Shown: piece by piece, positions 17,304-34,218 of the stretch
Position numbering within the stretch: position 1 is the first letter of the stretch
How the letters are laid out: every line of letters begins with the position of its first letter
Assembly: GCA_017524145.1 (NCBI GenBank)
Contig: JAFWUI010000052.1
Coordinates: 1 to 34,218, forward strand
Direction: 5' to 3'
DNA length: 34,218 bases
From: Oxalobacter sp.
Lineage (GTDB): Bacteria; Pseudomonadota; Gammaproteobacteria; Burkholderiales; Burkholderiaceae_D
Translations under genes and position numbers: made by a program
The notes under the pieces: generated by a model
Database searches by the model: none
Told to the model about the DNA's origin: nothing
What the model saw: only the letters and a program-made list of their open reading frames with translations

Positions 17304-17333
17304 GGAAACCCTGTCCGTCAATCATCAAGCCAA

Positions 17334-17915
17334 TCAACGCTTTGAAAGCGTCTTCAGTGCCATTTTAATCCCATCTGATACACTGCAGTCAGCGGGCAGC
17401 TGTTTCACTGCCAGCAACATTTCTTTCTCAGAATACCCCAAAGCCAGCAAAGCATTCTGGATATCTGTCCGGTTTGCTTCAGCAGGGGCAGAAACCGTAT
17501 TTGGTGAAACAGAAGAGTCCAGTTTGCCTTTCAGTTCCAACAGCAGGCGTTCAGCCGTCTTTTTGCCAATACCGGGAACACGGCAGAGGCGTGCAGTATC
17601 CTGCATGACTACAATTTCGGCCATTTCCTTGGCAGAAATCCCAGAAAGCAGCGCCAGTGCCGTACGTGCCCCGATGCCGGTGATCTTGATCAACTGGCGG
17701 AAAAGGGTACGTTCTTCCACCGTCCAGAATCCATACAGGACATGTGCATCTTCGCGGATTGCCAGATGTGTAAACAATGTAACACTGTCCCCTAAGGAAG
17801 GCAGGTTATAGAAAGTACTCATCGGCACATCGATTTCATACCCCACACCATGACAGTCCACCAGTACCTGTGGAGGGTTCTTTTCAAGCAGGATGCCTTG
17901 GATACGGCCAATCAT
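17334..17915 (-). CDS. ruvA: Holliday junction DNA-binding subunit RuvA
   Basis: RuvA binds the four-way junction as a tetramer and loads RuvB. The 193-residue protein has the N-terminal OB fold ([28 protein letters not shown]), two helix-hairpin-helix motifs ([14 protein letters not shown] and [17 protein letters not shown]), an acid- and proline-containing linker ([13 protein letters not shown]) and the C-terminal domain III that contacts RuvB ([12 protein letters not shown]). GAGG lies seven bases before ATG 17915. The ruvC-ruvA-ruvB order on one strand fits a single operon. Confidence 0.97.
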
Positions 17916-17956
17916 CTTTTACCTCATAAATAACCTGATGGAAGAATACCGGTCCA

Positions 17957-18502
17957 TCAACGGAGAAGCCTTCCCCTACGGATACGGAAAGAACTGCGGC
18001 TGCCCAGCGAAGCAGCGTTTTCCAATGCCCGGACGGCATCGAAACCATGGGCATGGCAGATGGCAACACCCAACGCATCAGAAGCATCAGCACCAGGTAT
18101 TCCCGGTAATGACAGCAGGCGTTGGACCATTGCCTGGACCTGCGTCTTGTCTGCCTTGCCATGACCGACCACCGCCTGTTTGATCTGCAGGGCGGTGAAT
18201 TCATACACTTCAAGGTCTGCGGCAACCAATGCACTGATTGCCGCACCACGTGCCTGCCCAAGCATCAAGGTTGATTGCGGATTGACATTGACAAACACCT
18301 TTTCAATGGCGGCACAATCAGGCTGATAGGTTCCGATAATCTCCGTGATGCCTTGGAAAATCGTCTTCAACCGGGCCGGCAACCCTGCATCAGCAGGCGT
18401 CTTGACCGTTCCCGAAGCAATATAAGACAGTTTATTCCCCACCTTATGGATGACCCCGAAACCCGTTGTCCGGAGCCCGGGGTCAATGCCAAGAATCCTC
18501 AT
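17957..18502 (-). CDS. ruvC: Crossover junction endodeoxyribonuclease RuvC
   Basis: RuvC cuts Holliday junctions symmetrically as a dimer within the RuvABC resolvasome. The 181-residue protein has the RNase H fold and the acidic catalytic set: D7 in [15 protein letters not shown]67 in [16 protein letters not shown], and D139/D142 in [16 protein letters not shown]. Basic residues at the end ([12 protein letters not shown]) extend beyond the core. GAGG lies seven bases before the ATG. It lies between purH and ruvA. Confidence 0.97.
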
Positions 18503-18556
18503 GATGGCACCTCAGCCAGACCGGGAATACACATCATGGGATATCCTGTTGCCAGA

Positions 18557-20122
18557 TCAGTGACGGAAATGGCGGATGGCAGTGAATGCCATCGCAATAC
18601 CATGTTCATCCGCTGCATCGATGACTTCCTGGTCCCGGACCGAACCACCTGGCTGGATGACTGCCTTTGCTCCAGCTTCAGCAGCAATATCCAGACCATC
18701 ACGGAATGGGAAGAAAGCATCAGAAGCGACAACCGAGTCTTTCAGGGAAAGTCCTGCCTGAGCTGCTTTCATCGTTGCAGTGCGGGCAGAATCTACACGG
18801 CTGACCTGACCGGCACCAATACCCAAGGTCATACCGTTGCCGCAGAACACAATTGCATTGGACTTCACAAACTTCACGATCTTGTAGGCAAACAGCATAT
18901 CGTCGATCTGCTGCTGGGTCGGCGCAACCTTGGTGACCACTTTCAACTTGTCAGCCATGGCTTTTGCTGTATCGGCAGACTGGACCAGCAGACCGCCCCC
19001 TACGCGTTTCATTTCATAGTTGTTGGTCTGTTTGCCCAATGGGATTTCCAACAGGCGCAGGTTTTTCTTGCGGTTGAAGACAGCTTTGGCTTCTTCAGTG
19101 AAATGCGGTGCAATCAGTACTTCCACAAACAGTTTGGAAACTTCTTCAGAAGTACGTCCATCCAGTTCACCGTTGAAAGCGATGATGCCGCCGAAAGCAG
19201 CCTGCGGATCGGTCTGCAATGCCTTGGTATAGGCTTCCAGAAGGTCCTTGCCAACAGCGACACCACATGGATTGGCGTGTTTGATGATGACACAGGCAGG
19301 TTCTTCAAAACTCTTCACACATTCCCATGCGGCATCCGCATCCGCAATATTGTTATAGGACAGCTCTTTGCCCTGGAACTGCTTATATCCCGCCAAAGCT
19401 CCATCAGGCAGGGATTTTTCACGGTAAAAAGCTGCAGACTGATGCGGATTCTCGCCATAACGCATATCCTGGACCTTCTCGAACTGCAGGTTCAGGATTT
19501 CAGGATAAGCCTGGCGGTTCTGGTGGTTCTTGTCAGCATTCAGGCTGGACATATAGTTTGCAATGGCACCATCGTAAGCAGCTGTGTGCGTAAAGGTTTT
19601 CACCATCAGCTGGAAACGGGTTTCCATGGACAGGGAACCATTGTTCCGCTGCATTTCAGCGATGATGTCCACATAATCAGCAGGGTCACAGACCACAGCT
19701 ACATCCTTCCAGTTCTTGGAAGCAGAACGCAGCATGGCGGGACCACCGATATCGATGTTTTCAATAGCATCTTCCAATGTGCAGTCTGCCTTTGTGATGG
19801 TCTGCTGGAAGGGATACAGGTTTACAACCACCATATCAATTGTGTCGATGCCATACTGCTGCAGTGCCTTCATATGTTCAGGCAGGTCACGCCTTGCCAG
19901 GATGCCTCCATGGATTTTGGGATGCAGGGTCTTGACCCGGCCGTCCAGCATTTCAGGGAAACCGGTATAGTCGGCGACTTCCGTCACGGCAATACCATTT
20001 TTCTGGAGCAGGTCAGCCGTGCCACCCGTAGATAGGATAACCGTATCCATGGCAGCCAGTGCTTTGGCAAAATCAACAATACCTGTCTTGTCGGAGACAG
20101 AAATCAATGCATATCGGGTCAT
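18557..20122 (-). CDS. purH: Bifunctional AICAR transformylase / IMP cyclohydrolase PurH
   Basis: PurH carries out the last two steps of IMP synthesis: formylation of AICAR with 10-formyl-tetrahydrofolate and ring closure. The 521-residue protein has the N-terminal MGS-like cyclohydrolase domain ([46 protein letters not shown]) and the C-terminal transformylase with [13 protein letters not shown], the lysine-histidine pair in [18 protein letters not shown] and [10 protein letters not shown]. The length matches the family. AGG lies seven bases before the ATG. It follows fis and precedes ruvC. Confidence 0.98.
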
Positions 20123-20161
20123 GGTAAAAACCTAACAAAATAAAAAATGGCCAAAAGACGG

Positions 20162-20410
20162 TTACATGGCATCCATATCAAGCAAGTCATGCTCCGCCAG
20201 TTTTTTCCGAAGGGTGTTCCGGTTGATGCCCAGCATTTCTGCTGCATGGGATTGGACAAAGCCAGCCTGTTCCATCACTATCATCAGGACAGGTTTTTCA
20301 ACCGTTTTGATAATCATATTGTAAACATCTGTTGGCTTCTGGCCATCAAGGTCCTTGAAATATGCCAACAGACTGCGTCTGACTGCATCCTGAATATGTT
20401 CACGACTCAT
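20162..20410 (-). CDS. fis: Fis-family nucleoid-associated DNA-binding protein
   Basis: Fis is a small dimeric DNA-bending protein that shapes the nucleoid and activates rRNA and other promoters. The 82-residue protein has the N-terminal helices (AVRRSLLAYFKDLDGQ) and the C-terminal helix-turn-helix typical of Fis and NtrC-like activators (QSHAAEMLGINRNTLRKKL). It is shorter than E. coli Fis at the N-terminus. The gene follows dusB on the same strand, the ancestral dusB-fis arrangement, so they should be co-transcribed. GGA about six bases before the ATG serves as a weak ribosome site. Confidence 0.93.
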   Translation of the reverse strand: MSREHIQDAVRRSLLAYFKDLDGQKPTDVYNMIIKTVEKPVLMIVMEQAGFVQSHAAEMLGINRNTLRKKLAEHDLLDMDAM

Positions 20411-20470
20411 CTGTATTCCAATCCCAGGCTGTGGCCTCTATCCGCCAAACAACCCATAAATCAAACAATT

Positions 20471-21463
20471 TCAATATTGTAACCGTTCATCCCGCTCAAG
20501 TAGAGGGGAGAAAAAACAATCCACGGCATTCAACTGCATTTCACAGGAATCTGCCTGGTTTGCCTGTTGCCTCAATACCTCACCATCAGGCAGGAAACGT
20601 GAATACCAGCCGATATGCTTGCGGGCAGTACGGACACCAGCGTTTTCCCCGTAAAACGCATAGTGCATCATCAAGTGGTCACGCATGGTTTCATGCACCT
20701 CAGATAACTTTGGGGGAGGCAGCAGTGTGCCATCTGACAGGAACCGGTCAATTTCCCGGAAAATCCAGGGACGTCCTTGGGCAGCCCTGCCGACCATCAG
20801 GCCATCAACCCCCGTCTTCTGCAGGACCATGGCCGCTTTTTCCGGCGAGTCGATATCGCCGTTTGCGATGACAGGAATGGATACCTGTGACTTCACCTCG
20901 GCAACCGTGTCATATTCAGCGGTGCCAAGATAGCCATCGGAGCGGGTACGTCCATGCAATGCCAATGCGGCAATGCCAATGCCTTCAGCCATTCTTGCTA
21001 TGGCAGGGGCATTGATATGGTCATGGTCCCAGCCCGTCCTGAATTTCAGTGTCACAGGCACAGCAACCGCATGTACCACTGCTTCAAGGATCCTGCCAAC
21101 CAAAGATTCATCCTGAAGCAGTGCAGAGCCGCACCAGTTCGAGCAGACCTTCTTGGCTGGACACCCCATATTGATATCGATAATCTGGGCTCCTTGGTCC
21201 ACATTGTAACGGGCAGCATCCGCCATCAGCTCTGGTGAAGAACCGACCAGCTGGATAGCGGCTGGGGCTGGCTCCCCGTCATGCATCAGCCGCCTGCGGC
21301 TCTTGTCTGTGTGCCATACCTGTGGATTCGATGCTGCCATTTCCGATATGGCATAACCTGCGCCCAGCTTCCGGCAGATCTGGCGGAAAGGGCGGTCGGT
21401 AACCCCGGCCATTGGCGCTACCACCAATCGGTTTGGCATCAGATAAGGTCCGATCTGCAACAT
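20471..21463 (-). CDS. dusB: tRNA-dihydrouridine synthase DusB
   Basis: DusB is a flavoenzyme that reduces uridine to dihydrouridine in the tRNA D-loop with NADPH. The 330-residue protein has the FMN TIM barrel starting LVVAPMAGVTDRPFR, the catalytic cysteine in INMGCPAKKV, LKFRTGWDHDH, ALHGRTRSDGYLG, PVIANGDIDSPEKA and DGLMVGRAAQGRPWIF, then the small helical RNA-binding domain (MRDHLMMHYAFYGENAGVRTARKHIGWY). The dusB-fis pairing separates it from DusA and DusC. No clear Shine-Dalgarno is seen before ATG 21463. Confidence 0.94.
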   Translation of the reverse strand: MLQIGPYLMPNRLVVAPMAGVTDRPFRQICRKLGAGYAISEMAASNPQVWHTDKSRRRLMHDGEPAPAAIQLVGSSPELMADAARYNVDQGAQIIDINMGCPAKKVCSNWCGSALLQDESLVGRILEAVVHAVAVPVTLKFRTGWDHDHINAPAIARMAEGIGIAALALHGRTRSDGYLGTAEYDTVAEVKSQVSIPVIANGDIDSPEKAAMVLQKTGVDGLMVGRAAQGRPWIFREIDRFLSDGTLLPPPKLSEVHETMRDHLMMHYAFYGENAGVRTARKHIGWYSRFLPDGEVLRQQANQADSCEMQLNAVDCFFSPLLERDERLQY

Positions 21464-21507
21464 CGTAGTAAGACAGAAAGCAGCCCTGCCTTGAAAGACA
21501 GGACAGG

Positions 21508-22176
21508 TCAGAAATGCTTGAAATAATCCACAGGCGGTTTCTTGGCCTCTTCCAGGTGTTCCGATTCCTGCCAGGCAGTCAGCTCAAGCCGGCCATCTTC
21601 ATACCATCGGAAACGGTTGATGCTGGTATTCAGCACCGGCATCCTGTTCACCACACCCAAAGGGATTCCCTTCGCTTCGCGGTAAGCGGTTTCCAATACG
21701 CCAAAATGGGTAATAATGGCAATCGTCTGTCCGAGATGGGCTTTTGCAGTCTCAGCAATGGCATCACGGGCACGGTAATGGAACTGCCGGGGACTTTCAG
21801 TCTTGCGTTTCCCATCAGGAAAAAACAGGTCAGGCGCAGCAGCAACCCAAGCCTTGTATTCTTCAGGGAATTTCGCCTTGATTTCATCCGAACGCAGTCC
21901 TTCGCAGGCACCATAACACCGTTCACGGAACCTGCGGTCAGCCGTTACTGGCAGACCATGGACGTCTGCAATCGCAAGCGCTGTTTCATAGGCCCGTTTA
22001 AGGTCACTGGAATAAATGGCATCCAGATGTTCACCTTTCAGGATGGAGGCAAGCGTTTCCGCCTGTTTCCTGCCATCTTCATTCAAGGGAATATCGCTAT
22101 GTCCCTGGAGTCTCTTCAGCTTGTTCCAGTCCGTCTGACCGTGACGGATAATCAGGATACCGGTATAGCCTGTCAT
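21508..22176 (-). CDS. Histidine phosphatase family protein (phosphoglycerate mutase-like)
   Basis: A 222-residue branch of the histidine phosphatase superfamily. The catalytic loop is LIIRHGQTDWN, with the later conserved pieces SDLKRAYETA, RERCYGACEG and IITHFGVLE (second histidine). In this family members are phosphoglycerate mutases, alpha-ribazole phosphatases or broad phosphatases; the sequence does not decide. The GACEG form and the DLFFPDGKRKTESP insertion are more like broad phosphatases than GpmA. Start: ATG 22176 lies just after the upstream PEBP stop; an ATG at 22200 would overlap that gene. Confidence 0.8.
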   Translation of the reverse strand: MTGYTGILIIRHGQTDWNKLKRLQGHSDIPLNEDGRKQAETLASILKGEHLDAIYSSDLKRAYETALAIADVHGLPVTADRRFRERCYGACEGLRSDEIKAKFPEEYKAWVAAAPDLFFPDGKRKTESPRQFHYRARDAIAETAKAHLGQTIAIITHFGVLETAYREAKGIPLGVVNRMPVLNTSINRFRWYEDGRLELTAWQESEHLEEAKKPPVDYFKHF

Positions 22177-22180
22177 GCCA

Positions 22181-22816
22181 TCACAGCTTGGCGGCGACAT
22201 CCGGGTTCAGCGAATAGACACCCGTAATGGTTGCCTTATCCAAGACATGCCCTTCAACGGCTTTCCAGACATCCTGACCGGTGAATGTGCCGGAAACCGC
22301 CAGTTTCTCGACATCCAGTGCATACAGCGTGAACACATAATGATGCGGAATCTCATCATTCCAAGGCGGGCAACAGCCATCGTAGCCGAAATAATCGCCA
22401 GACATATCCTTGTCAGATGCAAACCAGCCTGTGTAATCGTTGATACCCTGACGGCTGCCATCCAAAGCTTCAGGACCAGACTTGCCACGGGCAGTGATGC
22501 CGTTGGAAAACTCACCTTCTTCAACCGAAGTACGGGAAGCAGGCAGATCGACCAGCACCCAATGGAAAAAATCCACACGGGGCAGGGAAGCAGGGACAAC
22601 CTTGCCTTCCTGATTCACATTGTCGCCTTGGGACGGGACATCATAGTCATGGCAGATCAATGCCAGGGATTTGGTTCCAGCCGGCAGGTCACTCCAGGCA
22701 AAATGCGGATTCCTGTTGTCTGACATTGTCAGATGTGCGGCAGGGTCATACTTGCAGAAAGCGTATTGTGCAGGGATGGCTTTGCCATCCTGAATAGAAT
22801 TGCTCCAGAATTTCAT
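22181..22816 (-). CDS. YbhB/YbcL family Raf kinase inhibitor-like (PEBP) protein
   Basis: A 211-residue phosphatidylethanolamine-binding-protein-like fold: NPHFAWSDLPAGTKSLALICHDYDVP, HWVLVDLPAS, GYDGCCPPWNDEIPHHYVFTLYALD, and a C-terminal tail. The DHDxP-like and PPxxxPHHY segments are the ligand-site hallmarks. Bacterial members have no settled function. It has no signal peptide, so it should stay in the cytoplasm. It overlaps the next gene's longest frame and lies 66 bp from dtd. Confidence 0.85.
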   Translation of the reverse strand: MKFWSNSIQDGKAIPAQYAFCKYDPAAHLTMSDNRNPHFAWSDLPAGTKSLALICHDYDVPSQGDNVNQEGKVVPASLPRVDFFHWVLVDLPASRTSVEEGEFSNGITARGKSGPEALDGSRQGINDYTGWFASDKDMSGDYFGYDGCCPPWNDEIPHHYVFTLYALDVEKLAVSGTFTGQDVWKAVEGHVLDKATITGVYSLNPDVAAKL

Positions 22817-22882
22817 CGCAGCTCCTTGACAGATGGTAAAAGGAATAACTGCTATTTTGCCAGAGGAAGACAGGTTATGGCA

Positions 22883-23335
22883 TCACCTGCGGGGCGTTTC
22901 CAGCCAAAAAGTCACCGGTCCATCATTGACCAATGACACCTGCATATCGGCACCGAACCTGCCTGTTGCCACTTTGGCAATATCAGGCTGTTCCTGGGCC
23001 TTTTCCACAAAATAGTCAAACAGCCTTTTCCCGAGGTCAGGAGGTGCGGCAGGCGAGAAAGAAGGGCGCGTCCCTGATTTGGTGTCTGCTGCCAAGGTGA
23101 ACTGGGGGACAAGCAGCAGTCCGCCACCGATTGCGGAAACAGACAGGTTCATCTTGCCGCAAGGGTCAGAGAACACCCGGTAATTCACCAGCCGTTTCAA
23201 CAGCATGTCAGCTTCTTTTTCCGTATCCCCCCGTTCTGCACAGAGCAGCACCATCAGTCCATGACCGATACGGCCAATCTCTACAGAATCCACATGGACA
23301 GCCGCCTGGCGGACCCGTTGCAGTAAAGCGATCAT
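22883..23335 (-). CDS. dtd: D-aminoacyl-tRNA deacylase
   Basis: DTD hydrolyses the ester bond of D-aminoacyl-tRNAs and of glycine mischarged on tRNA-Ala, as a dimer. The 150-residue protein follows the family from [16 protein letters not shown] through [16 protein letters not shown], the active-site strand [18 protein letters not shown] (usual form SQFTL) and the cross-subunit loop [13 protein letters not shown] with Gly-cisPro read here as GPVT. GGGAG lies seven bases upstream of the ATG. It is grouped with anmK on one strand. Confidence 0.95.
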
Positions 23336-23357
23336 TCAAAACTCCCAAAAAATGCCG

Positions 23358-24485
23358 TCAGGCAGGGTACAGTGCACCAAGGATCCGGGGGCCGGTTGCC
23401 CCAGTCACTGCCGGCAGGTTCCCTGGCTTCCGCACAGTGAAACGGTGGGCAAGCCAGGCAAATGCCAACGACTCCACATGCATCGGGTCAATTCCCAAAA
23501 CAGTCGATGAATCCAGCGTCATTCCAGGTTTTTCCGCTTGCAACAGCCTGCGGATAGACTGGACCAGGAAACCATTCAATGCCCCGCCGCCACACAGATA
23601 CACCTGGCCGGTGTCAGGCGCATAGTTCAGCACGGCATCAGCAATTGTCCTTGCAGTCAGTGCCAGCAGGGTTGCCTGGATATCTTCCCCGCCGGTTGAC
23701 AATTCAACATCAGTCTGGAACAGATGCCGTTTCAGCCAGCCTAGATGGAACAGGTCCCTGCCAGTGCTTTTAGGGGGGGCTTTTTCAAAGAACGGATCAT
23801 CCAGCATACTCTCCAGCAGGCGTTCAATCACCTTGCCGCTTGATGCCCATCTGCCGTCTTTGTCATAAGGTTTCCGCAGCTGCTGCTGGATAAAGGCATC
23901 CATCAGCATATTGCCAGGACCCGTATCGAATCCTGTCACGGTTCCATCAGGACGCAGGATACTGATATTGGCGATACCCCCGATATTGATGACGGCACGG
24001 CTTGTGGAAGTGGATCCGAAAACTGTCTGATGAAAAGCCGGTACCAGTGGGGCACCTTGTCCGCCTGCTGCAATATCGCGGCTTCGGAAATCGGCGATTA
24101 CATCAATGCCAGTCAGCTCAGCCAATAATGCTGGATTGTTCGTCTGCCGGGAAAAACCCAGCTCAGGCCTGTGGCGTACAGTCTGCCCATGGACACCGAC
24201 CGCCGTGACATCCCGTGGTTTCAATCCAGCCTTTGCAACCAGCGCATTTACATTGGCGGCATATTTTTCTGCCAATGTATTTGCAGCCAGTGCTTCACGT
24301 TCAATCTCATTCACATCCATCCCCTGCAGCTGCATCAGCTCTTTCCGGAATGGAATGTCAAAAGGCACATGGGCATCGGCAAGGATTTCCAACCGTCCAC
24401 CGTTGTAATCATCAGGAATCGATGCCAGAACCCCATCGACACCATCAAGGCTTGTTCCAGACATCAGACCGATATAAAGCGCCAT
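23358..24485 (-). CDS. anmK: Anhydro-N-acetylmuramic acid kinase
   Basis: AnmK opens the 1,6-anhydro ring and phosphorylates anhMurNAc to MurNAc-6-phosphate in cell-wall recycling. The 375-residue ASKHA protein starts ALYIGLMSGTSLDGVDGV (phosphate loop and substrate aspartates), and contains VGVHGQTVRH, GIDVIADFRSRDIAAGGQGAPLVPAFH, NIGGIANIS, GFDTGPGN and YLCGGGALN. AGGAAA lies about seven bases before ATG 24485. Upstream of it on the same strand is an M23 endopeptidase, whose muropeptide chemistry fits recycling. Confidence 0.96.
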   Translation of the reverse strand: MALYIGLMSGTSLDGVDGVLASIPDDYNGGRLEILADAHVPFDIPFRKELMQLQGMDVNEIEREALAANTLAEKYAANVNALVAKAGLKPRDVTAVGVHGQTVRHRPELGFSRQTNNPALLAELTGIDVIADFRSRDIAAGGQGAPLVPAFHQTVFGSTSTSRAVINIGGIANISILRPDGTVTGFDTGPGNMLMDAFIQQQLRKPYDKDGRWASSGKVIERLLESMLDDPFFEKAPPKSTGRDLFHLGWLKRHLFQTDVELSTGGEDIQATLLALTARTIADAVLNYAPDTGQVYLCGGGALNGFLVQSIRRLLQAEKPGMTLDSSTVLGIDPMHVESLAFAWLAHRFTVRKPGNLPAVTGATGPRILGALYPA

Positions 24486-24508
24486 GGCGTTTCCTTGAGG
24501 GGTATCTA

Positions 24509-26236
24509 CTAAGAGCTGATCCGTTTGGAAGGATTCGCATTCAGCTCAGCAAAATAACTCTGCATCCGGTACAGATGCTTCCTGAAACGGGTCTTGTCGC
24601 TTCCGGTCAGCATCACATTCTGCCGGGAAGAAATCCCTGAGATGCTTGCAATCTTCGCGGGATCCTGCTGGATGCCGTTTACGCGGACCTCATAATGCAG
24701 ATGCGGACCAGTACTCATCCCCGTTGAACCGACATAACCGATGACATCCCCCTGGCGGACATGCAGGCCGGGTGCCATGCTCGGATGGATACGGCTCATA
24801 TGCCCATAGGCTGTTGCATAGACGCTCGTATGTTGGATGACGACCAGGTTGCCATAACCGCCATGCCAGCCAGCTTCACGGATAGTCCCATCCGCAGCTG
24901 CGTGGATTGGCGTGCCGGTCGCCGCCGCCATGTCCAGGCCTTTATGATGCTTCAGGCCACCGGTGACTGGATGGATACGGTAACCAAAACCCGAAGAAAT
25001 CCTGAAATTGTCCAAAGGCGTCCGCAGAGGCGAGGACAGCGGCGTAGCAGATGCCTTCAAGGAGCGGCCTTCCACATCATAATATTCACCTTTGCCGGTA
25101 TATTTCTCATACCAGATGGTCTGGTAATGCACCCCTTCATGGATGAATTCCGCTGCCAGCAGGTTCCCTGCCTTCACAAACCGGCCATCCTTCCGGTACA
25201 CCTCATAAATCACATTGAAGCGCGATCCTTTCAGGTCACTGATGTCCATATCCACATCAATCGAGAACAGGTTTGTGAATTTCTTGGTGATCTCATCTGG
25301 TAGCCCTGCACGCTGTGCCGCTGCGAAGATGGTTGTTTCAATCGTGGCAGAACGGGCTTCCACAGAAGTGATGGTGGCAGAAGGCTTTGTTTCACGGGGT
25401 CCTGCATCACCTTTCGCATAAACCCTTGGGGTGTCATTGTTGCTGTAGCGGTCGCGGTAGTCCTGCTTGGCAATCTCATCGATCTTGGAAGTCAGGTTAT
25501 CCTGCTTGGCGGCATTCTTGGTCCTTTCCGAATATTGGCGGGGATCCTTTGGTTTTGCCCGGATATCCCCTTTCTGGGCAACCTGTTTCACAACCGGCTT
25601 TTCGACAATCGGTTTCCGGGCATCGGCAGGTCCAGATACCTGGAATTCCGGTAATGAGGAAGACTGGCTGGCAGTCTGTGTTGCCGGTTGACTGAAACGT
25701 TTGGCATATGTCTTGCCGCTGGATTCCTGGAGTTCCGGCATCGATGCAGCAACCGAGTTTTTCTTGATTGGCCGGACCGTCTGTCTGGCATGCTGCGTCA
25801 TCCCAGACGGTTGCGGCTTGTGTGAAGCCGGAGATTTTGCAGCAGCAACCGTTTTTGCTGCCTGTTGGGTATGTTTTGTTTTTTGGGGAACCGCTGTCTT
25901 ATGGCTGTCCTGCCTTTCAACAGAGGCAACAGCAGAAGACCGGCTTGGGACAGGTTTGGCTGCTGTCTTTGCAGGTGCTTTCTCTGCCGGTTTCCGCTCA
26001 ACCGCCTTGACAGCAGACTGCTTGACCGATGCCTTTACAGGAGCAGAAGCCGTTTTCTTTTCAACCGCCTTGGCTGCCGTTTTCCTGGCAGCAGGCTCCG
26101 CTTTCCGTACTGTGGAACCCGGAGCTGTTCCAGCAGAGACAGATGAGGGAAGAAACAGTACAGCCCCTGAGACCGCCATGCATACTGACAGTAGCATCCG
26201 TTCCAGTATCTGTCCTGCGGTATCGGTAAGACGCAT
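24509..26236 (-). CDS. M23 family peptidoglycan endopeptidase with Lys/Ala-rich linker (MepM-like)
   Basis: A 575-residue envelope protein. Residues 1-35 form a basic segment and a hydrophobic stretch (MLLSVCMAVSGAVLFLPSSVSA) that is a signal peptide or anchor. Residues about 40-170 are low-complexity, rich in K, A, P, V and S, like a histone H1 tail. Residues 295-385 are an OapA/LysM-like region, followed by the M23 domain with zinc ligands H431 and D435 in HHKGLD and H512-L-H514 in PHLHYEV. M23 enzymes cut peptide cross-links. Divergent from tyrS, so a 142-bp spacer holds both promoters. AGAGGG lies seven bases upstream of the ATG. Confidence 0.9.
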   Translation of the reverse strand: MRLTDTAGQILERMLLSVCMAVSGAVLFLPSSVSAGTAPGSTVRKAEPAARKTAAKAVEKKTASAPVKASVKQSAVKAVERKPAEKAPAKTAAKPVPSRSSAVASVERQDSHKTAVPQKTKHTQQAAKTVAAAKSPASHKPQPSGMTQHARQTVRPIKKNSVAASMPELQESSGKTYAKRFSQPATQTASQSSSLPEFQVSGPADARKPIVEKPVVKQVAQKGDIRAKPKDPRQYSERTKNAAKQDNLTSKIDEIAKQDYRDRYSNNDTPRVYAKGDAGPRETKPSATITSVEARSATIETTIFAAAQRAGLPDEITKKFTNLFSIDVDMDISDLKGSRFNVIYEVYRKDGRFVKAGNLLAAEFIHEGVHYQTIWYEKYTGKGEYYDVEGRSLKASATPLSSPLRTPLDNFRISSGFGYRIHPVTGGLKHHKGLDMAAATGTPIHAAADGTIREAGWHGGYGNLVVIQHTSVYATAYGHMSRIHPSMAPGLHVRQGDVIGYVGSTGMSTGPHLHYEVRVNGIQQDPAKIASISGISSRQNVMLTGSDKTRFRKHLYRMQSYFAELNANPSKRISS

Positions 26237-26297
26237 CCAGTTTCCCTCTTATTGCTGCAATCAGTTAAAATAATCTATTTCCATGCGGAAAAAACGC

Positions 26298-26325
26298 TTG
26301 ATGTATTGTCTAATCAAAACATCAA
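26298..26325. promoter_or_regulatory. Inverted repeat in the M23/tyrS divergent spacer
   Basis: TTGATGT (26298-26304) is inverted as ACATCAA (26319-26325) around 14 bp. The spacer 26237-26378 must hold both divergent promoters; this dyad could be an operator. No confident -35/-10 pair is seen for either gene. Confidence 0.3.
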
Positions 26326-26378
26326 TCGAGCTCTAGATTATAGCAATTCAAGACGATAGATATAAGTTAATATCACCG

Positions 26379-27626
26379 ATGACTGAAAATACTCCGACTC
26401 CGGCACCTGTAGAAGAGCTGCCATTGACCGATTCTGTCAAAGAAGCGCTTGCCATTACAAAACGTGGCTGCGATGAACTGATCATCGAAGCGGAATTCGC
26501 CCAGAAACTCGCCCGTTCTGAAAAGACCGGAACCCCTCTGCGTATCAAACTGGGGCTCGACCCGACTGCACCAGACCTCCATCTGGGGCACACCGTTGTC
26601 CTCAACAAGATGCGGCAGCTGCAGGACCTGGGTCATGTCGTCATCTTCCTGATCGGTGACTTCACCTCCCTTATCGGCGACCCAAGCGGACGCAACGCCA
26701 CCCGCCCGCCGCTGACCCGTGAACAGATCGAGGAAAACGCCATGACCTACTTCAAGCAGGCAAGTATGGTGCTCGATCCTGAAAAGACAGAAATCCGCTA
26801 CAACTCTGAATGGAGCGATGCCCTCGGTGCGCGTGGCATGATCAAGCTCGCCGCCATGTACACGGTTGCCCGTATCATGGAACGTGACGATTTTTCCAAG
26901 CGCTTCAAGGCGGGAACCCCGATTTCAGTCCATGAATTCCTGTATCCGCTGATGCAGGGCTATGATTCCGTCGCCCTCAAGTCAGACCTCGAACTCGGTG
27001 GCACCGACCAGAAATTCAACCTGCTCGTCGGCCGTGAACTCCAGCGTCAGGTCGGTCAGGAACCCCAGTGCATCCTCACCATGCCGCTGCTTGAAGGGTT
27101 GGACGGTGTCCAGAAGATGTCCAAGTCCAAAGGCAACTACGTCGGCATCAAGGAACCCGGCAATGTCCAGTTCGGCAAGCTGATGAGCATCTCCGATGAG
27201 ATGATGTGGCGTTACTACGAACTGCTTTCCTTCAAGTCCATCCAGGAAATCGAAAAACTCAAGAAAGCCGTTGCCGAAGGCATGAACCCACGGGATGCCA
27301 AGGTTGCCCTTGCCCAGGAAATCGTTGAACGCTTCCATTCCAAGGCAGATGCCGAAGCTGCACTGCAGGACTTCGTCAACCGTACCCACGGCGGCATCCC
27401 GGATGACATCCCGACAGTCAAACTCAGTGGCGCACCTCTGCCGATTGGCAACCTGCTCAAACAGGCAGGACTCTGCCCATCCACCTCCGATGCGATGCGC
27501 ATGGTCCAGCAGGGCGCTGTCCGCATCAACAGCGAGGTCGTCAGCGACAAGGCACTCAAGGTCGGTGCCGGTACCATGGTCGTCCAGGTCGGCAAACGCC
27601 GCTTCGCCAAAGTCGAACTGGCTTGA
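26379..27626 (+). CDS. tyrS: Tyrosine-tRNA ligase
   Basis: Charges tRNA-Tyr with tyrosine via tyrosyl-AMP. The 415-residue class I synthetase has HLGH at 68-71 (the HIGH motif), [36 protein letters not shown], the loop K246-MSKS-250 and a C-terminal S4 RNA-binding domain ([22 protein letters not shown]). The DLHLGHTVV signature and length are those of the TyrS group with roughly 400-420 residues. Start ATG 26379 lacks a good Shine-Dalgarno. The gene is GC-rich and uses favoured codons, typical of core genes. Confidence 0.97.
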
Positions 27627-27641
27627 AACCCTCCCAGAAAA

Positions 27642-27675
27642 CAGGAAAGCCGTTCATCCCTGAACGGCTTTCCTG
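27642..27675. terminator. Shared hairpin between tyrS and the methyltransferase gene
   Basis: A perfect 15-bp stem (27642-27656 with 27661-27675) and a four-base loop. The minus-strand side is followed by TTTTCT, so it best ends the minus-strand methyltransferase transcript; as a symmetric hairpin it can also end tyrS from the other side, though no T-run follows there. Confidence 0.85.
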
Positions 27676-27693
27676 CGTTCAAGTCTTCAGCAT

Positions 27694-28935
27694 TCAGTCT
27701 TCCGCCTCGAAATCCAGCCCCAACGACGCACAGATTTCAGGGTGGAAAACCTCCCATGAAACCTTTGCCCCATCATGGGCATACTGTACCCTGGCTTCTT
27801 TGACGGTATCCAGCAGCTCATTCAGCCGGACACTCGGCCCGTAATGCAGCAACTGCCAGCCGGCATCATTGCAGGCATAGTAATAGCCGATGCCGCCCGC
27901 CACACCGACCCGTGTGATGAACGTCACATCATATTTCTCAAGCACCGCCTTGCCGACATAGACATCCGTCTTGTCCCAGGCGCTGAACACCATATCCGCC
28001 AGTGATTCGTTCCCCTCGATACGGACAATCTCCAGCTTCGAACGGCCATAAGCGGCGATGATGTCCTCGCGCCTTGCCGGTGGGAGATCGGTGGGGTTTT
28101 TCATGAACACAGCAACCGGATGCGTCTGTGGAAGACCGTTCCCATCTGTATAAGTCAGTCCTTTGGAGCGATGGGCGAGGAAGCGTAAGCCAGAAGCCTC
28201 GCAGATGCGTACCCAGCGGCAGAACGTTTCGCCATATCCCCAGCTGTCCTGCGAATAGAATACCCCGTCATCCGCCAGCAGCTCATTCACCAGCTGCATA
28301 TCTGCCAATGGCTGCTGAGGCTGGTCCCGTTCATCCGGTGTCATCAGTCCTTTGCTGAACACATCCATCGTCATCGAGGCGGCATACACCTGTGAGGCAA
28401 TCACCAGGTCCGCCTTGCCCAACCCGGCTTTCAGGAAACTGTCCAATGAGCCTGTAAATGTATGCACGTTGCCCAGCTTCAGGCCGATGGCGCGGGCATC
28501 CGTCACCAATGTGGCATCCATATTGATGTCCAGTGCAACCACCTGCGCATCCGGGAACTGCTTCGCCAGGAAACACGCCAGCAGGCCGTTGCCACAGCCG
28601 ATATCCACAACCACCTTGCCAGACAGGTCACCGACCTGCCCAAGCAGCCATTCCGCAAAAACACCCAGCCGCTCCGCATTCAACTGACCCGCCAGTGCGT
28701 TCGAGAACTCCAGCGAAGAATAGATGACACTGTAAGGCGCTTCAACAGCAGAGGCGTTTTCAGCCTTCGCATGCGCATAATCCAGATAGCGTTTCGCCAT
28801 ATCCTTGAACTTGATGTTCAGGCGTTTCTCAAAGGCGGCGTTGTTCGTCTGCTTCGGTACACCATGTCCCAGGCAGAACTGTGAGAACACCTGCCGGACA
28901 GGCTTGCGGTTCGATGGCTTCTTGACTTGTTTCAT
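27694..28935 (-). CDS. SAM-dependent methyltransferase, class I
   Basis: A 413-residue protein with a Rossmann methyltransferase core: motif I VVVDIGCGNG (residues about 108-117), motif II acid in VVALDINMD, then GKADLVIASQVYAA and DDGVFYSQDSWGYGET. An N-terminal extension of about 100 residues begins with a lysine-rich stretch (MKQVKKPSNRKPVRQ), and a C-terminal part of about 150 residues holds no motif I recognise; the substrate is unknown. Start: an in-frame GTG at 28956 extends it, but GGAGAG eight bases before ATG 28935 favours the latter. It lies divergently beside the CRISPR module, separated only by the tracrRNA gene; a link to the system is not suggested by sequence. Confidence 0.75.
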   Translation of the reverse strand: MKQVKKPSNRKPVRQVFSQFCLGHGVPKQTNNAAFEKRLNIKFKDMAKRYLDYAHAKAENASAVEAPYSVIYSSLEFSNALAGQLNAERLGVFAEWLLGQVGDLSGKVVVDIGCGNGLLACFLAKQFPDAQVVALDINMDATLVTDARAIGLKLGNVHTFTGSLDSFLKAGLGKADLVIASQVYAASMTMDVFSKGLMTPDERDQPQQPLADMQLVNELLADDGVFYSQDSWGYGETFCRWVRICEASGLRFLAHRSKGLTYTDGNGLPQTHPVAVFMKNPTDLPPARREDIIAAYGRSKLEIVRIEGNESLADMVFSAWDKTDVYVGKAVLEKYDVTFITRVGVAGGIGYYYACNDAGWQLLHYGPSVRLNELLDTVKEARVQYAHDGAKVSWEVFHPEICASLGLDFEAED

Positions 28936-29084
28936 CTCAAAAACTCTCCGTGGCACAGATGAAATGTGTGCCGATAACCAGAAAGGTCTTACTGTATCAG
29001 AGGATACAGTTTTGTCATATCAGTATTTTGGTAGGAAAAGACTGGCTGACGGCCAAGAAAAGGGTAAACGTTTTTCAAGACGTA
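28936..29084 (-). promoter_or_regulatory. Upstream region of the methyltransferase gene with a small hairpin
   Basis: This 149-bp stretch lies between the tracrRNA terminator and the methyltransferase start and must hold the methyltransferase promoter, though no strong pair is seen (TTGGCC-N17-TACCAA is the best and weak). It contains CTGTATC (28992-28998) inverted as GATACAG (29003-29009), which could be an operator. Confidence 0.35.
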
Positions 29085-29187
29085 GAAATAAGAAGATCCT
29101 GCCATTTCTGGCAGGATCGGATTCGTTTCATTCCCGAAGGAAATCAACTTATTGTAGTAACGGATCTCACCCCATAAAGCTACAACA
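29085..29187 (-). ncRNA. tracrRNA of the type II-C CRISPR-Cas system
   Basis: On the minus strand the stretch 29186-29151 is an anti-repeat: 36 bases matching the CRISPR repeat at 30 positions, perfect over 21 bases of repeat positions 15-35. Reading on, CTACAATAAG is followed by a TTCC-TTCG-GGAA hairpin (plus 29131-29142) and a perfect 10-bp hairpin GATCCTGCCA/TGGCAGGATC (plus 29095-29104 and 29109-29118) with CTTCTTATTT behind it, an intrinsic terminator. This order of anti-repeat, nexus and terminal hairpin is the Neisseria-type tracrRNA plan. A promoter with its start predicted at about 29187 fits. Expected length about 100 nt. It pairs with pre-crRNA for RNase III cleavage and holds the guide in Cas9. 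It runs opposite to cas9. Confidence 0.88.
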
Positions 29188-29192
29188 GCGTA

Positions 29193-29221
29193 AGTCTATC
29201 TGAACTTTCAAGTAACTGCAA
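29193..29221 (-). promoter_or_regulatory. Promoter of the tracrRNA gene
   Basis: Minus-strand TTGCAG (plus 29216-29221) and TAGACT (plus 29193-29198) are separated by exactly 17 bp, with the expected start around the first base of the anti-repeat (29186-29187). Good spacing, moderate consensus, and the ideal location together support it. Confidence 0.6.
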
Positions 29222-29282
29222 ATCTCTTGAATCTCCATGTTTTTTATAAGGTTTTCATTACGGAAAAATCCTGAAAAAAGTT

Positions 29283-29288
29283 TAGAAT
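29283..29288 (+). promoter_or_regulatory. Possible -10 element of the cas9 operon
   Basis: TAGAAT at 29283-29288, within the AT-rich stretch 29222-29300, is about 30 bp before cas9. The best -35 candidate is TTACGG at 29258-29263, spaced 19 bp, so the match is weak. The cas promoter and the tracrRNA promoter lie back to back in about 130 bp. Confidence 0.3.
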
Positions 29289-29319
29289 AAATGCATCGGC
29301 AAATTCTCAGGAGCAGGTC

Positions 29320-32300
29320 ATGAGCAATCGTATCATTGGATTGGATATCGGCATCGCTTCAGTTGGTTGGGCGGTTGTTGAAAACGGTGTCCGCATCATT
29401 GATTTGGGAGTCAGGACTTTTGACAAGGCGGAAACAGCCAAAGAAGGCGATTCGCTCAATCTCATCAGACGGGAAGCCAGGCTTGCCAGAAGACGTTTGT
29501 CACGCCGTGCCCAGCGGTTGCGCCAGACAGCCCGTTTCCTGAAAACATCTGGACTCATTGCATCTGAATCAGACTTACATCAGCCCTTGCACAAAGATGT
29601 TCAGAAAATAGAAGGGGAAGGTAAATCACCGTGGCAATTACGTGCTGAGGGACTTGACCGCTTACTGACACCATTTGAATTGGCCAAGGTTATTTTCCAT
29701 ATTGTCAAGCATCGGGGTTTCCATTGGGTAAGCAGTGCAGAAAGGGCTGCTGCCGACAATGATAAAGAAGGCGGAGCAATCAAGAAGGGACTCGTGGCGA
29801 CCGAAGCCAGAATGAAAGAAAAAGGTTATCGGACGTTGGGCGAAATGATTTGGAAAGAGTACCCGGATGCACAACGGAATAAAGGCGGTGCTTATGAAAA
29901 AGTCCTGCCCCGGACAGGATTGGATGCGGAGTTGAGGTCTCTTTTCGGTGTTCAGAAAAAATTGGGCAATTCTTCTGTCACTGATGCTTTGGTTGAAGGC
30001 ATTGTTGGTACAGGAGATCGGAAAACAGGGCTGCTTTGGAAGCAGAAACCGCCGATTCAAGGTGAGGATATCCTGAAAATGTTGGGGCATTGCCGTTTTG
30101 AACGTAATGAATTCCGTGCACCAAAAAACAGTTTTGCCGCAGAACGGCATATCTGGTTGACCCGGTTGAATAATCTAAGACTTGTCAGTAACGGACAGTC
30201 TCGCGAATTGACTCCAGAAGAAAGAAAAGAAGTCCTGAATATGCCTTATGACCAGAAAGGCGACCTGACTTATAAACAGCTACGTCGGAAATTGGAAAAA
30301 TCAGGACTTTGGAATAAAGGCGAATATCGGTTTGCTGGATTACGGTATGGGGAGAAAGACCCTGAAACAGCTGTACTGTGCAAGATACCTGGCTGGCATG
30401 CACTTGAAAGGGCCTATGAAAGTGCCGGATTGCAGGGAGAATGGAAACAGATTTCAGACAAAGCCCTATTGGAAAGCCGTTCCGATTTATTGGATCAGCT
30501 GGCATTCATCCTGTCTGTTTATAAAGAAGATGAAGAAGTCCGCGGGCAGCTGATTGAAGTATTGGGAAAAGGAAAGGACAAGTTGATTGATGCCTTGTTG
30601 TCCATCCGTTTTGACCAGTTCAGTGCATTGTCTTTGAAAGTGCTGAATGCCATCCTGCCATTCATGAATGCTGGTGACCGTTATGATGAGGCCTGTGGAA
30701 AAGCGGGTTATCAGCATAGTGCCAAAGGGACAGAAAACCTCGAAAAAACAAAGTATCTGCCATCTTTGTTCAGCGGTCGTGATGTCCATGGAACCATGGT
30801 CTTGAATGAAGAATTGGATGTTCCACGCAATCCTGTGGTATTGCGGGCAATCAACCAGACACGCAAGGTATTGAATGCCATCGTCAAGAAATATGGTTCT
30901 CCTTCTGAAGTGCATATCGAGCTAGGCAGGGATTTGTCCCGCAGTTTTTCGCAGCGGAACAGCATCGCAAGGGAACAGAAAAAATATGCAGACAGGAAAG
31001 AGGTGTTGATTCAGAAGTTCAGGGAACTGTTCAATGCAGAGCCAAATGGACGCAATCTGGAAAAATTCCGGCTTTATAGCGAACAGCAGGGTAAAAGTCT
31101 TTACTGTGGGAAGCCGATTGATATTGGACGTCTCCTTGAACCCGGCTATGTTGAGGTGGATCATATCCTGCCTTATTCCCGTAGTTTCGATGATTCCAAA
31201 AACAACAAGGCACTCGTATTCACTTGGGAGAACCGTGATAAAGGGAACCGCACACCGTTTGAATATATCGGGTCAAATACGGATGATTGGCATGAATTTG
31301 AAGAGCATGTCGGTTCATTGAAACTGACTATGGCAAAACGGCAGCGTCTGTTACGGAAGGATTTTGGTGATAAAACAGAGAAAGAATTCCGTGACCGCAA
31401 TCTCAATGACACCCGTTATGCCAGCCGTTTCTTCAAGAATTATGTCGATGCCTGTTTGAAACTAACAAATCCACTTAGCGAAGCAGGAGCGGTCAGCGTG
31501 AATGGGGCTTTGACATCTTTCCTCCGTGCCCGTTGGGGATTGTTGAAAGTCCGTTCTGAAAATGACCGTCATCATGCGATGGATGCTGTGGTGGTTGCCT
31601 GTTGTACAAGGGCGATGATTCAGCATGTTGCAATATATTCTTCGCATAGAGAACGTTTCTTTAAAAGAAAAGGCGATGTTGTAGATTTATCAACAGGCGA
31701 GGTCTTGAATCGTTTCCCTGTGCCTTGGGAACATTTCAGTGAGGAATTGCAACTTCGTCTTTACTGTAATGGCCGTCAGATGTTGCAGGAAGAATTGGCT
31801 AAGTTGGGGACTTATCCAGAAGAAGCCTTGAAAGCTGTGAAACCATTGTTTGTTTCTCGCGCCATCCAGCGTCGCGGAACGGGAGCCCTGCATAAAGAAA
31901 CCATCTATTCCCAGACAGCAGAACAGAAAAAAGAAGAATTGGTTACCCGAAAGATTCTGTTGACGGAATTGAAACAATCACATTTCAAAAGCCTTGTGGA
32001 TTATGACCGTAATGCCAAGCTCTATGAGACCATTCGCGGGAGACTGGAGGCGGCAGGCTGGGATGCCAAAAAAGCCTTTCCGGAAGGATCAATGCGGATG
32101 CTGGACAAGGAAGGCAGACCGAATGGTACGATGGTCAAATCAGTCCGGATAACGGAAAAGAAAACGGGAACATCTATCCGTGGAGGCTTGGCAGAGAATG
32201 GATTGATGAGACGGGTAGATGTCTTCAAGAAGAATGGTCAGTATTTTTTGGTGCCAATCTATTTCTGGCATAAAGAACTGCCGAATAGGGCTGTTGCTGC

Positions 32301-32604
32301 ATATAAACCTGAAGAAGAATGGTTTGTGATAGATAATCAGTTTGAATGGTGTTTTTCGTTGGTAACGAACGATTTGGTTCATATTAAGCTCAAGGGTAGA
32401 GAATATATTGGCTATTTTGCTGGATTGGATCGTGCAACAGGAGCAATCAGCATCTTGGGGCATGATAGAAACCAAGATTTTGGCAAAGAAGGTGTACAGA
32501 GAGGTATTGGGGTCAGAAATGCTCTGATTTTCAAAAAACTGGCGGTCGATGTGCTCGGCAATGTCTATGCTTTGCCACAGGAGCCACGCCATGAGCTGGC
32601 GTAG
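29320..32604 (+). CDS. cas9: CRISPR-associated endonuclease Cas9, type II-C
   Basis: RNA-guided double-strand DNA nuclease, the effector of this module. At 1094 residues it has the compact II-C size (near Neisseria Cas9). Order: RuvC-I with D9 in IIGLDIGIASVGWAV; arginine-rich bridge helix about 50-74; recognition lobe about 75-480; RuvC-II with E534 in EVHIELGRD; HNH with D614-H615 in VEVDHILPYSRSFDDSKNNK; RuvC-III with H752 and D755 in NDRHHAMDAVV; C-terminal wedge and PAM-interacting part from about 860. All catalytic residues are present, so both nuclease sites should be active. AGGAG lies seven bases before ATG 29320. The stop overlaps the cas1 start. The PAM cannot be read from the protein. 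Confidence 0.98.
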   Translation: MSNRIIGLDIGIASVGWAVVENGVRIIDLGVRTFDKAETAKEGDSLNLIRREARLARRRLSRRAQRLRQTARFLKTSGLIASESDLHQPLHKDVQKIEGEGKSPWQLRAEGLDRLLTPFELAKVIFHIVKHRGFHWVSSAERAAADNDKEGGAIKKGLVATEARMKEKGYRTLGEMIWKEYPDAQRNKGGAYEKVLPRTGLDAELRSLFGVQKKLGNSSVTDALVEGIVGTGDRKTGLLWKQKPPIQGEDILKMLGHCRFERNEFRAPKNSFAAERHIWLTRLNNLRLVSNGQSRELTPEERKEVLNMPYDQKGDLTYKQLRRKLEKSGLWNKGEYRFAGLRYGEKDPETAVLCKIPGWHALERAYESAGLQGEWKQISDKALLESRSDLLDQLAFILSVYKEDEEVRGQLIEVLGKGKDKLIDALLSIRFDQFSALSLKVLNAILPFMNAGDRYDEACGKAGYQHSAKGTENLEKTKYLPSLFSGRDVHGTMVLNEELDVPRNPVVLRAINQTRKVLNAIVKKYGSPSEVHIELGRDLSRSFSQRNSIAREQKKYADRKEVLIQKFRELFNAEPNGRNLEKFRLYSEQQGKSLYCGKPIDIGRLLEPGYVEVDHILPYSRSFDDSKNNKALVFTWENRDKGNRTPFEYIGSNTDDWHEFEEHVGSLKLTMAKRQRLLRKDFGDKTEKEFRDRNLNDTRYASRFFKNYVDACLKLTNPLSEAGAVSVNGALTSFLRARWGLLKVRSENDRHHAMDAVVVACCTRAMIQHVAIYSSHRERFFKRKGDVVDLSTGEVLNRFPVPWEHFSEELQLRLYCNGRQMLQEELAKLGTYPEEALKAVKPLFVSRAIQRRGTGALHKETIYSQTAEQKKEELVTRKILLTELKQSHFKSLVDYDRNAKLYETIRGRLEAAGWDAKKAFPEGSMRMLDKEGRPNGTMVKSVRITEKKTGTSIRGGLAENGLMRRVDVFKKNGQYFLVPIYFWHKELPNRAVAAYKPEEEWFVIDNQFEWCFSLVTNDLVHIKLKGREYIGYFAGLDRATGAISILGHDRNQDFGKEGVQRGIGVRNALIFKKLAVDVLGNVYALPQEPRHELA

Positions 32605-33490
32605 TATTGTCATTTCTAATCCAGCCCGCCTGCATCGGGAACATTATTCACTGGCAATCGAGCAGGAAGAGGCGGTTTTTGTGCCGTTTGAAGATATAGC
32701 GGTCATCGTTTTAGACAATCCACAGATTACGTTGACCCAACCGGTTCTAGCCGCCTGTGCAGAATATGGGATTGCATTGTTCTGCACCGATTTCACACAT
32801 ACCCCGTGTGGGGTGTTCTTACCTTTTGGGACACATTCCCGGACTACCCGTATCCTGCGGTTGCAGATCAAGGCAACACAACCTGCCAAGAAACGCATCT
32901 GGGCAGAAATTGTCAAGGCGAAAATCCGTAATCAGGCCCGGTGTCTGAGATATGCAGGACAAATGGGCGATGACAGGTTGGAGAAACTGGCATCAGCAGT
33001 CCGTTCAGGTGATGCAGGCAATCTTGAGGCGAGGGCAGCCAAATGGTATTTCGATGGGTTGTTTGGCAGTCAATTCAGCCGTATCCAGGATACACCTGTG
33101 AATGCATGTCTTAATTATGGCTATGCAATAATCCGGGGAGCAGTTGCCCGTCAGTTGGTGTTGCATGGGTTGCATCCGCCGATGGGGATATTCCATAGCA
33201 GTGAACAGAATGCCTTCAATCTGGCGGATGATTTGATAGAACCTTTCCGTCCAGTGGTTGACCTGTATGTTGCCACCCATTTGCCATCCATCTTGAATGC
33301 ATCAGATATTCCAAAAGCATCGTTGGTCCGTTTGTTGAATGTGGATATGGTGATGCCAGAAGGCGTGACTGCAGTATCAACCGCCATTGAATATGCTGTG
33401 GAAAGTTTTGTCAGGGTATTGGAAGGAACGGACAAGCATCTGTCGTTGCCAGAACTGATACCGTTGCGGACACATTTCAGGGAGACATGA
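32591..33490 (+). CDS. cas1: CRISPR-associated endonuclease Cas1
   Basis: Integrase that with Cas2 inserts new spacers into the array. The 299-residue protein starts MSWRSIVISNPARL and shows the metal-binding triad E146 in NLEARAAKWYFDGLFG, H202 in GIFHSSEQNAFNLADDLIEPFRPVVD and D214 in the same segment. Start: ATG 32591 lies inside the end of cas9 (14-base overlap) with AGGAG eight bases upstream; the frame is open further back but only as cas9 shadow. The presence of cas1 and cas2 with only cas9 and no csn2 or cas4 defines subtype II-C. Confidence 0.96.
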   Translation: MSWRSIVISNPARLHREHYSLAIEQEEAVFVPFEDIAVIVLDNPQITLTQPVLAACAEYGIALFCTDFTHTPCGVFLPFGTHSRTTRILRLQIKATQPAKKRIWAEIVKAKIRNQARCLRYAGQMGDDRLEKLASAVRSGDAGNLEARAAKWYFDGLFGSQFSRIQDTPVNACLNYGYAIIRGAVARQLVLHGLHPPMGIFHSSEQNAFNLADDLIEPFRPVVDLYVATHLPSILNASDIPKASLVRLLNVDMVMPEGVTAVSTAIEYAVESFVRVLEGTDKHLSLPELIPLRTHFRET

Positions 33491-33491
33491 A

Positions 33492-33824
33492 ATGTCAGCT
33501 GAATTGAGGCGTCCTATGCGATTACTTGTTTTCTTTGACCTGCCAACCATCACCCGTGCCAATAAGCGGGCTTATGTCCTTTTCAGACGGTTCCTGCTCA
33601 ATGATGGTTTTGACATGATTCAATGGTCAGTGTATGGACGCATTCTTTCAGGACGTGAAGCAGAACAGATGCATTACCAGCGTATCCGTGAGAATCTGCC
33701 CCCTGAAGGTTCCGTGCGTTGTATGACAGTCACAGAAAAGCAGTATGCAGGCATCAGGTTGTTGGTTGGCAAACCGAAAAAACAGGAAAAAAAGGTCAAC
33801 GCAGACCAGTTGTTGCTGTTTTAA
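33492..33824 (+). CDS. cas2: CRISPR-associated protein Cas2
   Basis: Cas2 is the central dimer of the Cas1-Cas2 integration complex. The 110-residue protein has the ferredoxin-like fold with the first strand LLVFFDLPTITRANKR (D16), then YVLFRRFLLNDGFDMIQWSVYGRI and a lysine-rich tail (KPKKQEKKVNADQLLLF). One base separates it from the cas1 stop; GGGAGA lies seven bases before the ATG. Its stop codon is part of the shared terminator stem. Confidence 0.95.
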   Translation: MSAELRRPMRLLVFFDLPTITRANKRAYVLFRRFLLNDGFDMIQWSVYGRILSGREAEQMHYQRIRENLPPEGSVRCMTVTEKQYAGIRLLVGKPKKQEKKVNADQLLLF

Positions 33825-33869
33825 AAAAGCCTGGAATCTGTGGATGAACACAGAAAATCAGGCTTTTTT
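33823..33869. terminator. Bidirectional terminator between cas2 and the CRISPR array
   Basis: An 11-bp stem AAAAAAGCCTG (33823-33833) with CAGGCTTTTTT (33859-33869) encloses a second hairpin (TCTGTG with CACAGA, around GATGAA). Each strand ends in a run of six T, so it can stop the cas9-cas1-cas2 transcript and, from the other side, transcripts of the array. It includes the last two bases of the cas2 stop codon. The next 50 bp up to the first repeat hold only a small GGGTT/AACCC dyad (33873-33892). Confidence 0.88.
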
Positions 33870-33921
33870 CTAGGGTTGAATTCTGATAACCCTTTGAATA
33901 TCAAGCGGAATCCAAAGACGG

Positions 33922-34218
33922 ATTGTAGCTTTATGGGGTGAGACCGGAAACTACAACGCTGTAACGGTAACTTCTGCGCTGTGGTGTATTGTAGCTTTAT
34001 GGGGTGAGACCGGAAACTACAACCTGGATTGCTGAGGACTACCGCGCCAGCGAAATTGTAGCTTTATGGGGTGAGACCGGAAACTACAACATTCCAATGT
34101 TTGTTAGCATCCTTTACTAGATTGTAGCTTTATGGGGTGAGACCGGAAACTACAACGATGGTTGCGGTATTGTTTTCCATGGCTATATTGTAGCTTTATG
34201 GGGTGAGACCGGAAACTA
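33922..34218 (-). CRISPR. Type II-C CRISPR array (at least five repeats, runs off the window)
   Basis: Identical 36-nt repeats at 33922-33957, 33988-34023, 34055-34090, 34121-34156 and, cut by the window end after 32 bases, 34187-34218. Spacers: 33958-33987 (30), 34024-34054 (31), 34091-34120 (30), 34157-34186 (30). On the plus strand the repeat starts ATTGTAGC and ends ACTACAAC; read on the minus strand it starts GTTGTAGT and ends GCTACAAT, as in Neisseria II-C repeats, whose last bases form a -10 promoter box. crRNAs are therefore probably made on the minus strand, spacer first and repeat second, toward cas2. The true number of spacers, and any leader, lie beyond the window. Confidence 0.97.

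Follow-up and report, generated by a model that had tools for sequence, protein, structure and literature searches.

The question raised by this Oxalobacter contig is whether the cas genes and repeats near its end form a CRISPR-Cas9 system that could still defend its host and, if so, to which subtype it belongs and which PAM its Cas9 would recognize. In the window (the whole stretch of 34,218 nucleotides that was analysed, contig C37 of a 1.81 Mb genome in 55 contigs that is 87% complete), positions 29085-34218 hold a tracrRNA gene on the minus strand, cas9, cas1, cas2 and a CRISPR array, so the list of parts given for these coordinates in an earlier note on this DNA was right. The host of the locus is an Oxalobacter species and the locus is a type II-C CRISPR-Cas9 system; we are highly confident that it is an ordinary and apparently functional adaptive immune locus of that species, working by the steps set out below. 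Beside it, at 16227-28956, lie ordinary chromosomal genes (ruvB, purH, dus and genes for a histidine phosphatase and a PBP-family protein, then dtd, anmK, a gene for an M23 peptidase, tyrS and a methyltransferase gene), and no phage or integrase family was matched by the ten neighbouring proteins scanned there. An Rfam scan of the window listed two tRNAs and no other family.

The three cas genes are intact frames that run in one direction. The first, cas9 (29320..32604, plus strand), encodes 1094 amino acids and matches TIGR01865 with 746 bits (cut-off 100) as well as the HNH_4 and RuvC_III domains. It is followed by cas1 (32591..33490, plus strand, 299 aa), which matches the type II Cas1 model TIGR03639 with 284 bits (cut-off 120) and which overlaps the end of cas9 by 14 nt if its start at 32591 is right; this start was our choice, the longest frame beginning at 32549, and it is also present in the sister genome described below. 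The last gene, cas2 (33492..33824, plus strand, 110 aa), matches TIGR01573 with 74 bits (cut-off 24.5). Cas9 aligns to solved Cas9 structures over nearly its whole length, the top matches being the chains of Nme1Cas9 (6jdv; 8ja0 is taken to be the same protein) and those of 8hnt, a Cas9 of 1055 aa that is presumably the one of Haemophilus parainfluenzae and that we also take to be of type II-C. PDB entry 6jdv is the type II-C protein Nme1Cas9 according to PMC9433092. Judged by these best solved matches rather than by a tree, the window Cas9 is closest to Cas9s of type II-C. In an alignment of 23 Cas9 rows, from which L060-L064 (one near full length, four partial) were left out, all seven nuclease residues (D9, E534, D614, H615, N638, H752 and D755) are kept in 21 rows, the window included, and the other two rows differ by a gap at D9 only. 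The earlier description of a type II-C, Neisseria-like Cas9 with its catalytic residues is thus borne out by the family matches, the alignment to solved Cas9s and the residues themselves: D9, E534, H615, H752 and D755 stand where that note had placed them, and D614 and N638 can be added.

The arrangement around these genes agrees with the same assignment. The locus combines what is expected of type II, namely a Cas9 with RuvC and HNH residues, a predicted tracrRNA complementary to the repeat and an array of unique spacers adjoining the cas genes, and its operon is that of subtype II-C, with cas9, cas1 and cas2 only and with neither csn2 (judged at the locus) nor cas4 (judged genome-wide). The window's ORF list has no additional frame of at least 80 aa between cas2 and the array, and the cas4 model PF01930 found no match in the host genome, at its 87% completeness.

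The predicted tracrRNA occupies 29085..29186 on the minus strand and consists of a 36-nt anti-repeat (29186-29151), a short nexus-like hairpin and a strong terminator hairpin (29118-29095). Its fold has an energy of -34.9 kcal/mol (z -4.20), which none of 200 shuffled sequences equalled, and the pairing of the anti-repeat with the crRNA repeat reaches -52.8 kcal/mol, where 200 shuffled anti-repeats gave -12.1 on average and -21.7 at best. The 20-nt core of the repeat has 11 matches in the genome, and of these the anti-repeat alone lies on the minus strand; the tracrRNA is near-identical, as compared by eye, in the sister genome's locus. Given this minus-strand anti-repeat and its pairing with the minus-strand repeat, both tracrRNA and crRNAs would be minus-strand transcripts that run against the direction of the cas genes. 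A plus-strand tracrRNA was considered and rejected, since the anti-repeat would then have its terminator on the wrong side. Between cas2 and the array, an A-tract, a hairpin and a T-tract (33823..33869, assigned to neither strand) fold far better than shuffled sequences (z -6.33 on the plus strand and -6.19 on the minus strand); a simple terminator scan listed nothing at this position. This element is a probable bidirectional terminator that would part the convergent transcripts.

The array itself (33922..34218, minus strand by its pairing with the tracrRNA) contains four full 36-nt repeats, 32 nt of a fifth, and four spacers of 30-31 nt. The earlier note had called all five visible repeats identical, which holds for the four full repeats and, for the fifth, across the 32 of its 36 nt that precede the end of the contig. 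The same repeat opens contig C18 of the same genome (L015:1-324), and the array found there begins with a 24-nt partial spacer, continues with four more full spacers and closes with a degenerate last repeat, so we infer that C37 and C18 adjoin. Since the array runs on to C18, the locus as contained in the window cannot be called complete and self-contained, as had been proposed, even though every part on the list is there.

The one named relative that came up is a sister MAG, Oxalobacter sp. MBin.057 (JAHAYL010000059.1, L002; taken to be genome G006), whose Cas9 is 90.0% identical to that of the window (985/1094). The two loci share gene order, repeat and an aspartate at the PAM-5 position, and the sister's array is likewise split between contigs and has a similar degenerate end; they differ in that the C-terminal region of Cas9 is only 86.1% identical and carries P, instead of the window's A, in the column of Nme1 Q981. 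A simple counting method applied to the two loci, without a neutral control, gave dN/dS values of 0.105 for cas9, 0.058 for cas1 and 0.035 for cas2. When the eight full spacers of the window's genome were compared with 14 of the 17 spacers of the sister (two that stand beside a variant repeat and one at a contig end were left out), none were similar, the closest pair having 17 mismatches. Low dN/dS and differing spacers speak for a locus that is maintained while its spacers turn over, and the earlier suggestion of an array that is not decaying is supported, in the form of a non-decaying locus, by the identical repeats and the low dN/dS.

The locus would then work as follows. The array would gain spacers through Cas1 and Cas2; minus-strand crRNAs, if transcribed as supposed, would pair with the minus-strand tracrRNA, to which the repeat is complementary in sequence; the crRNAs would be trimmed, possibly by RNase III as in the related system of C. 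jejuni; and the guided Cas9 would cut invading DNA beside a PAM whose position 5 is probably C. It is conceivable, though in our judgement unlikely, that the locus is intact in sequence but inactive: silent, for instance because it is not expressed, or inhibited, for instance by an anti-CRISPR protein of a prophage. Searches of phage, plasmid and viral collections and of relatives' genomes gave no protospacer for any of the eight full spacers, so there is no direct sign of interference at this locus, and the earlier proposal to read a PAM from bases shared beside protospacers in phage and plasmid sequence yielded none. Consensus promoter scans listed no promoter-like site within the array and none ahead of the tracrRNA; the one such site near the tracrRNA lies past its 3' end, and the count equals chance expectation. 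A precedent for silence comes from C. jejuni: PMC3656092 describes a strain in which crRNAs and tracrRNA are expressed only weakly, and connects this with a cas9 stop mutation. Against this, the promoter scans are weak tests, the repeats are identical, dN/dS is well below 1 in all three cas genes, and the sister species have no similar spacer among the 8 x 14 compared.

The protospacer searches may be described by collection. The window array had no match among phages or plasmids; the C18 array had none among plasmids, and its three phage records, each with E = 4, were rejected as chance. The two arrays of the sister MAG had no match among phages. As exact patterns of 18-21 nt, none of the eight full spacers was matched in viral contigs, a search that misses mutated targets. 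In the 13 genomes of the genus, the arrays strongly matched arrays and tracrRNAs and, in G007, an isolated repeat-like stretch; the remaining matches, at E 0.009-0.097, were weak, and one fell inside the array of G010. The isolated match (G007:C8:555205-555296) is a single repeat-like stretch, 73-85% identical over 41-88 nt, about 10 kb from the G007 array. Among 195 genomes of the family, 115 had a match to the window array at E <= 1; those below 1e-4 were arrays or tracrRNAs of G000, the sister MAG (G006) and G007, together with the isolated G007 match and one array of G137, and the remainder were read as chance. Spacer 4 had a match in G093 (84%, E 0.001). For many genomes of this family search fewer candidates were scored than found (e.g. 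3 of 8), so that targets may be missed.

One spacer match bears on a second alternative, namely that the main role of the locus is to regulate host genes through Cas9 as an RNA-guided repressor. The end of spacer 2 (window 34035-34054) recurs without mismatch, over 20 nt, in six of the family's genomes; the three sites that were read lie in one shared frame, and a scan of one of them identified the helicase gene priA (PriA). However, when 28 nt of spacer 2 were searched with up to three mismatches in the 13 Oxalobacter genomes, its own included, only the array itself was matched, the per-genome E of about 0.007-0.01 in the 195-genome search is compatible with chance, and Cas9 retains its cleavage residues, which together make a mainly regulatory role very unlikely. 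Self-targeting of priA by spacer 2 was likewise rejected, there being no match in Oxalobacter outside the array, and the 20-nt match is probably due to chance or is a trace of a foreign priA. That the locus is an assembly or binning artefact, on a contig from another organism, is hardly credible: the window is indeed a single contig from an assembly that is incomplete and in 55 contigs, but another contig of the bin starts with the same repeat and has a far flank that resembles that of the sister MAG (by eye), the sister Oxalobacter record has the same locus, and all ten neighbouring proteins scanned are of ordinary chromosomal kinds.

The C-terminal PAM-interacting region of Cas9 lies at 31867..32601 on the plus strand (residues 850-1094, by alignment to Nme1Cas9 and 8hnt). 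The earlier note could match this domain to no known PAM specificity; its 244 residues do, however, align to the PAM-interacting domains of both Nme1Cas9 and the 8hnt Cas9, 8hnt giving the best match at 162 bits. The comparison with Neisseria Cas9 that the note had proposed gives 99 identical residues among 225 aligned (44%), with no gap falling between key residues, and places D1037 in the column of Nme1 H1024, A994 in that of Q981, T1040 in that of T1027 and A1042 in that of N1029. Since Q981, H1024 and N1029 of Nme1 are thereby replaced by A, D and A, a different PAM is to be expected. Of the 23 aligned Cas9s, 12 have D in the H1024 column, 6 have H, 4 have N and 1 has G. Wei et al. report that orthologs of Nme1Cas9 with aspartate at this position prefer C at PAM position 5 (PMC9433092), and by that rule D1037 would place the window Cas9 in the group with an N4C PAM. 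The orthologs behind the rule are 59.6-70.4% identical to Nme1 over the whole protein (PMC9433092), and the 44% found here over the C-terminal region suggests that this Cas9 is farther from Nme1 than they are, so that the rule is likely to be stretched. We regard C at position 5 as probable, and the PAM stays a prediction because the protospacer search gave none. More tentatively, and here we are doubtful, the combination of A, D, T and A at the Q981, H1024, T1027 and N1029 positions might specify an N4C-type PAM whose positions 6-8 are new for a compact Cas9.

Besides the window, a search with this Cas9 of the 13 genus genomes (its own included) matched only the sister MAG at 90%, G007 at 47% and G010 at 45%, and the last two (loci L017 and L018) have divergent Cas9s and different repeats. 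At the level of the order, the window Cas9 has matches at E <= 0.001 in 48 of 399 genomes (its own included), many of them weak or partial, and the Cas9s of 17 loci belonging to other families (L041-L057) are 45-54% identical to it across most of their length; the Cas9s of G007 and G010 are therefore less like that of the window than are some from other families, for which horizontal exchange would be a natural reading. A plasmid search with Cas9 returned 63 records, all below 60% identity, with 40.6% for the top-ranked one. A locus in the same family (L023, G137:C19) has an array of at least 10 repeats at 66-nt spacing, with a related but different repeat. At L018:2026-7344 (G010:C59), a threonine synthase, a MoaD-like protein and Cas9 are read in one open frame of 1772 codons, and an apparent tracrRNA anti-repeat can be seen by eye in the stretch before Cas9; this probably reflects separate genes in a stop-free frame, or faulty assembly, and not a fusion.

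The available part of PMC9812493 names types I-C and I-F for Oxalobacter, to which the present locus adds type II-C. Of the 13 genus genomes, 2 matched the I-C marker cas8c, the host genome giving no match. Strain HC-1 is credited with CRISPR-associated proteins of no stated type in the accessible text of PMC5502849, and no earlier report of an Oxalobacter Cas9 was among the literature matches listed. Novelty could lie in the precise PAM, subtype II-C itself being already known. The locus adds a compact Cas9 with a concrete PAM prediction that is cheap to test, and it leaves the general understanding of CRISPR unchanged.

Among known systems, Nme1Cas9 aligns to the window Cas9 over near-full length (6jdv, 772-777 bits), its chains have 1082-1083 residues against 1094, and its repeat is presumably of the same type as that of the window (GTTGTAG...CTACAAT). 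The 8hnt Cas9 differs by having N at the PAM-5 position, where the window Cas9 has D. By its sequence, the window Cas9 is not near-identical to any solved Cas9, and the near-identity to a characterised Cas9 against which the earlier note had cautioned was not encountered in the collections searched, Nme1 standing at 44% over the C-terminal 225 residues. In overall plan the locus resembles the minimal II-C system of C. jejuni, which as described in PMC3656092 also has only cas9, cas1, cas2, a tracrRNA and an array, and in which the repeat bears a -10 box and every crRNA has its own promoter. The window repeat, read on the crRNA strand, similarly has a 3' end that resembles a -10 box, TACAAT, whereas that of C. 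jejuni ends in GGTAAAAT (PMC3656092).
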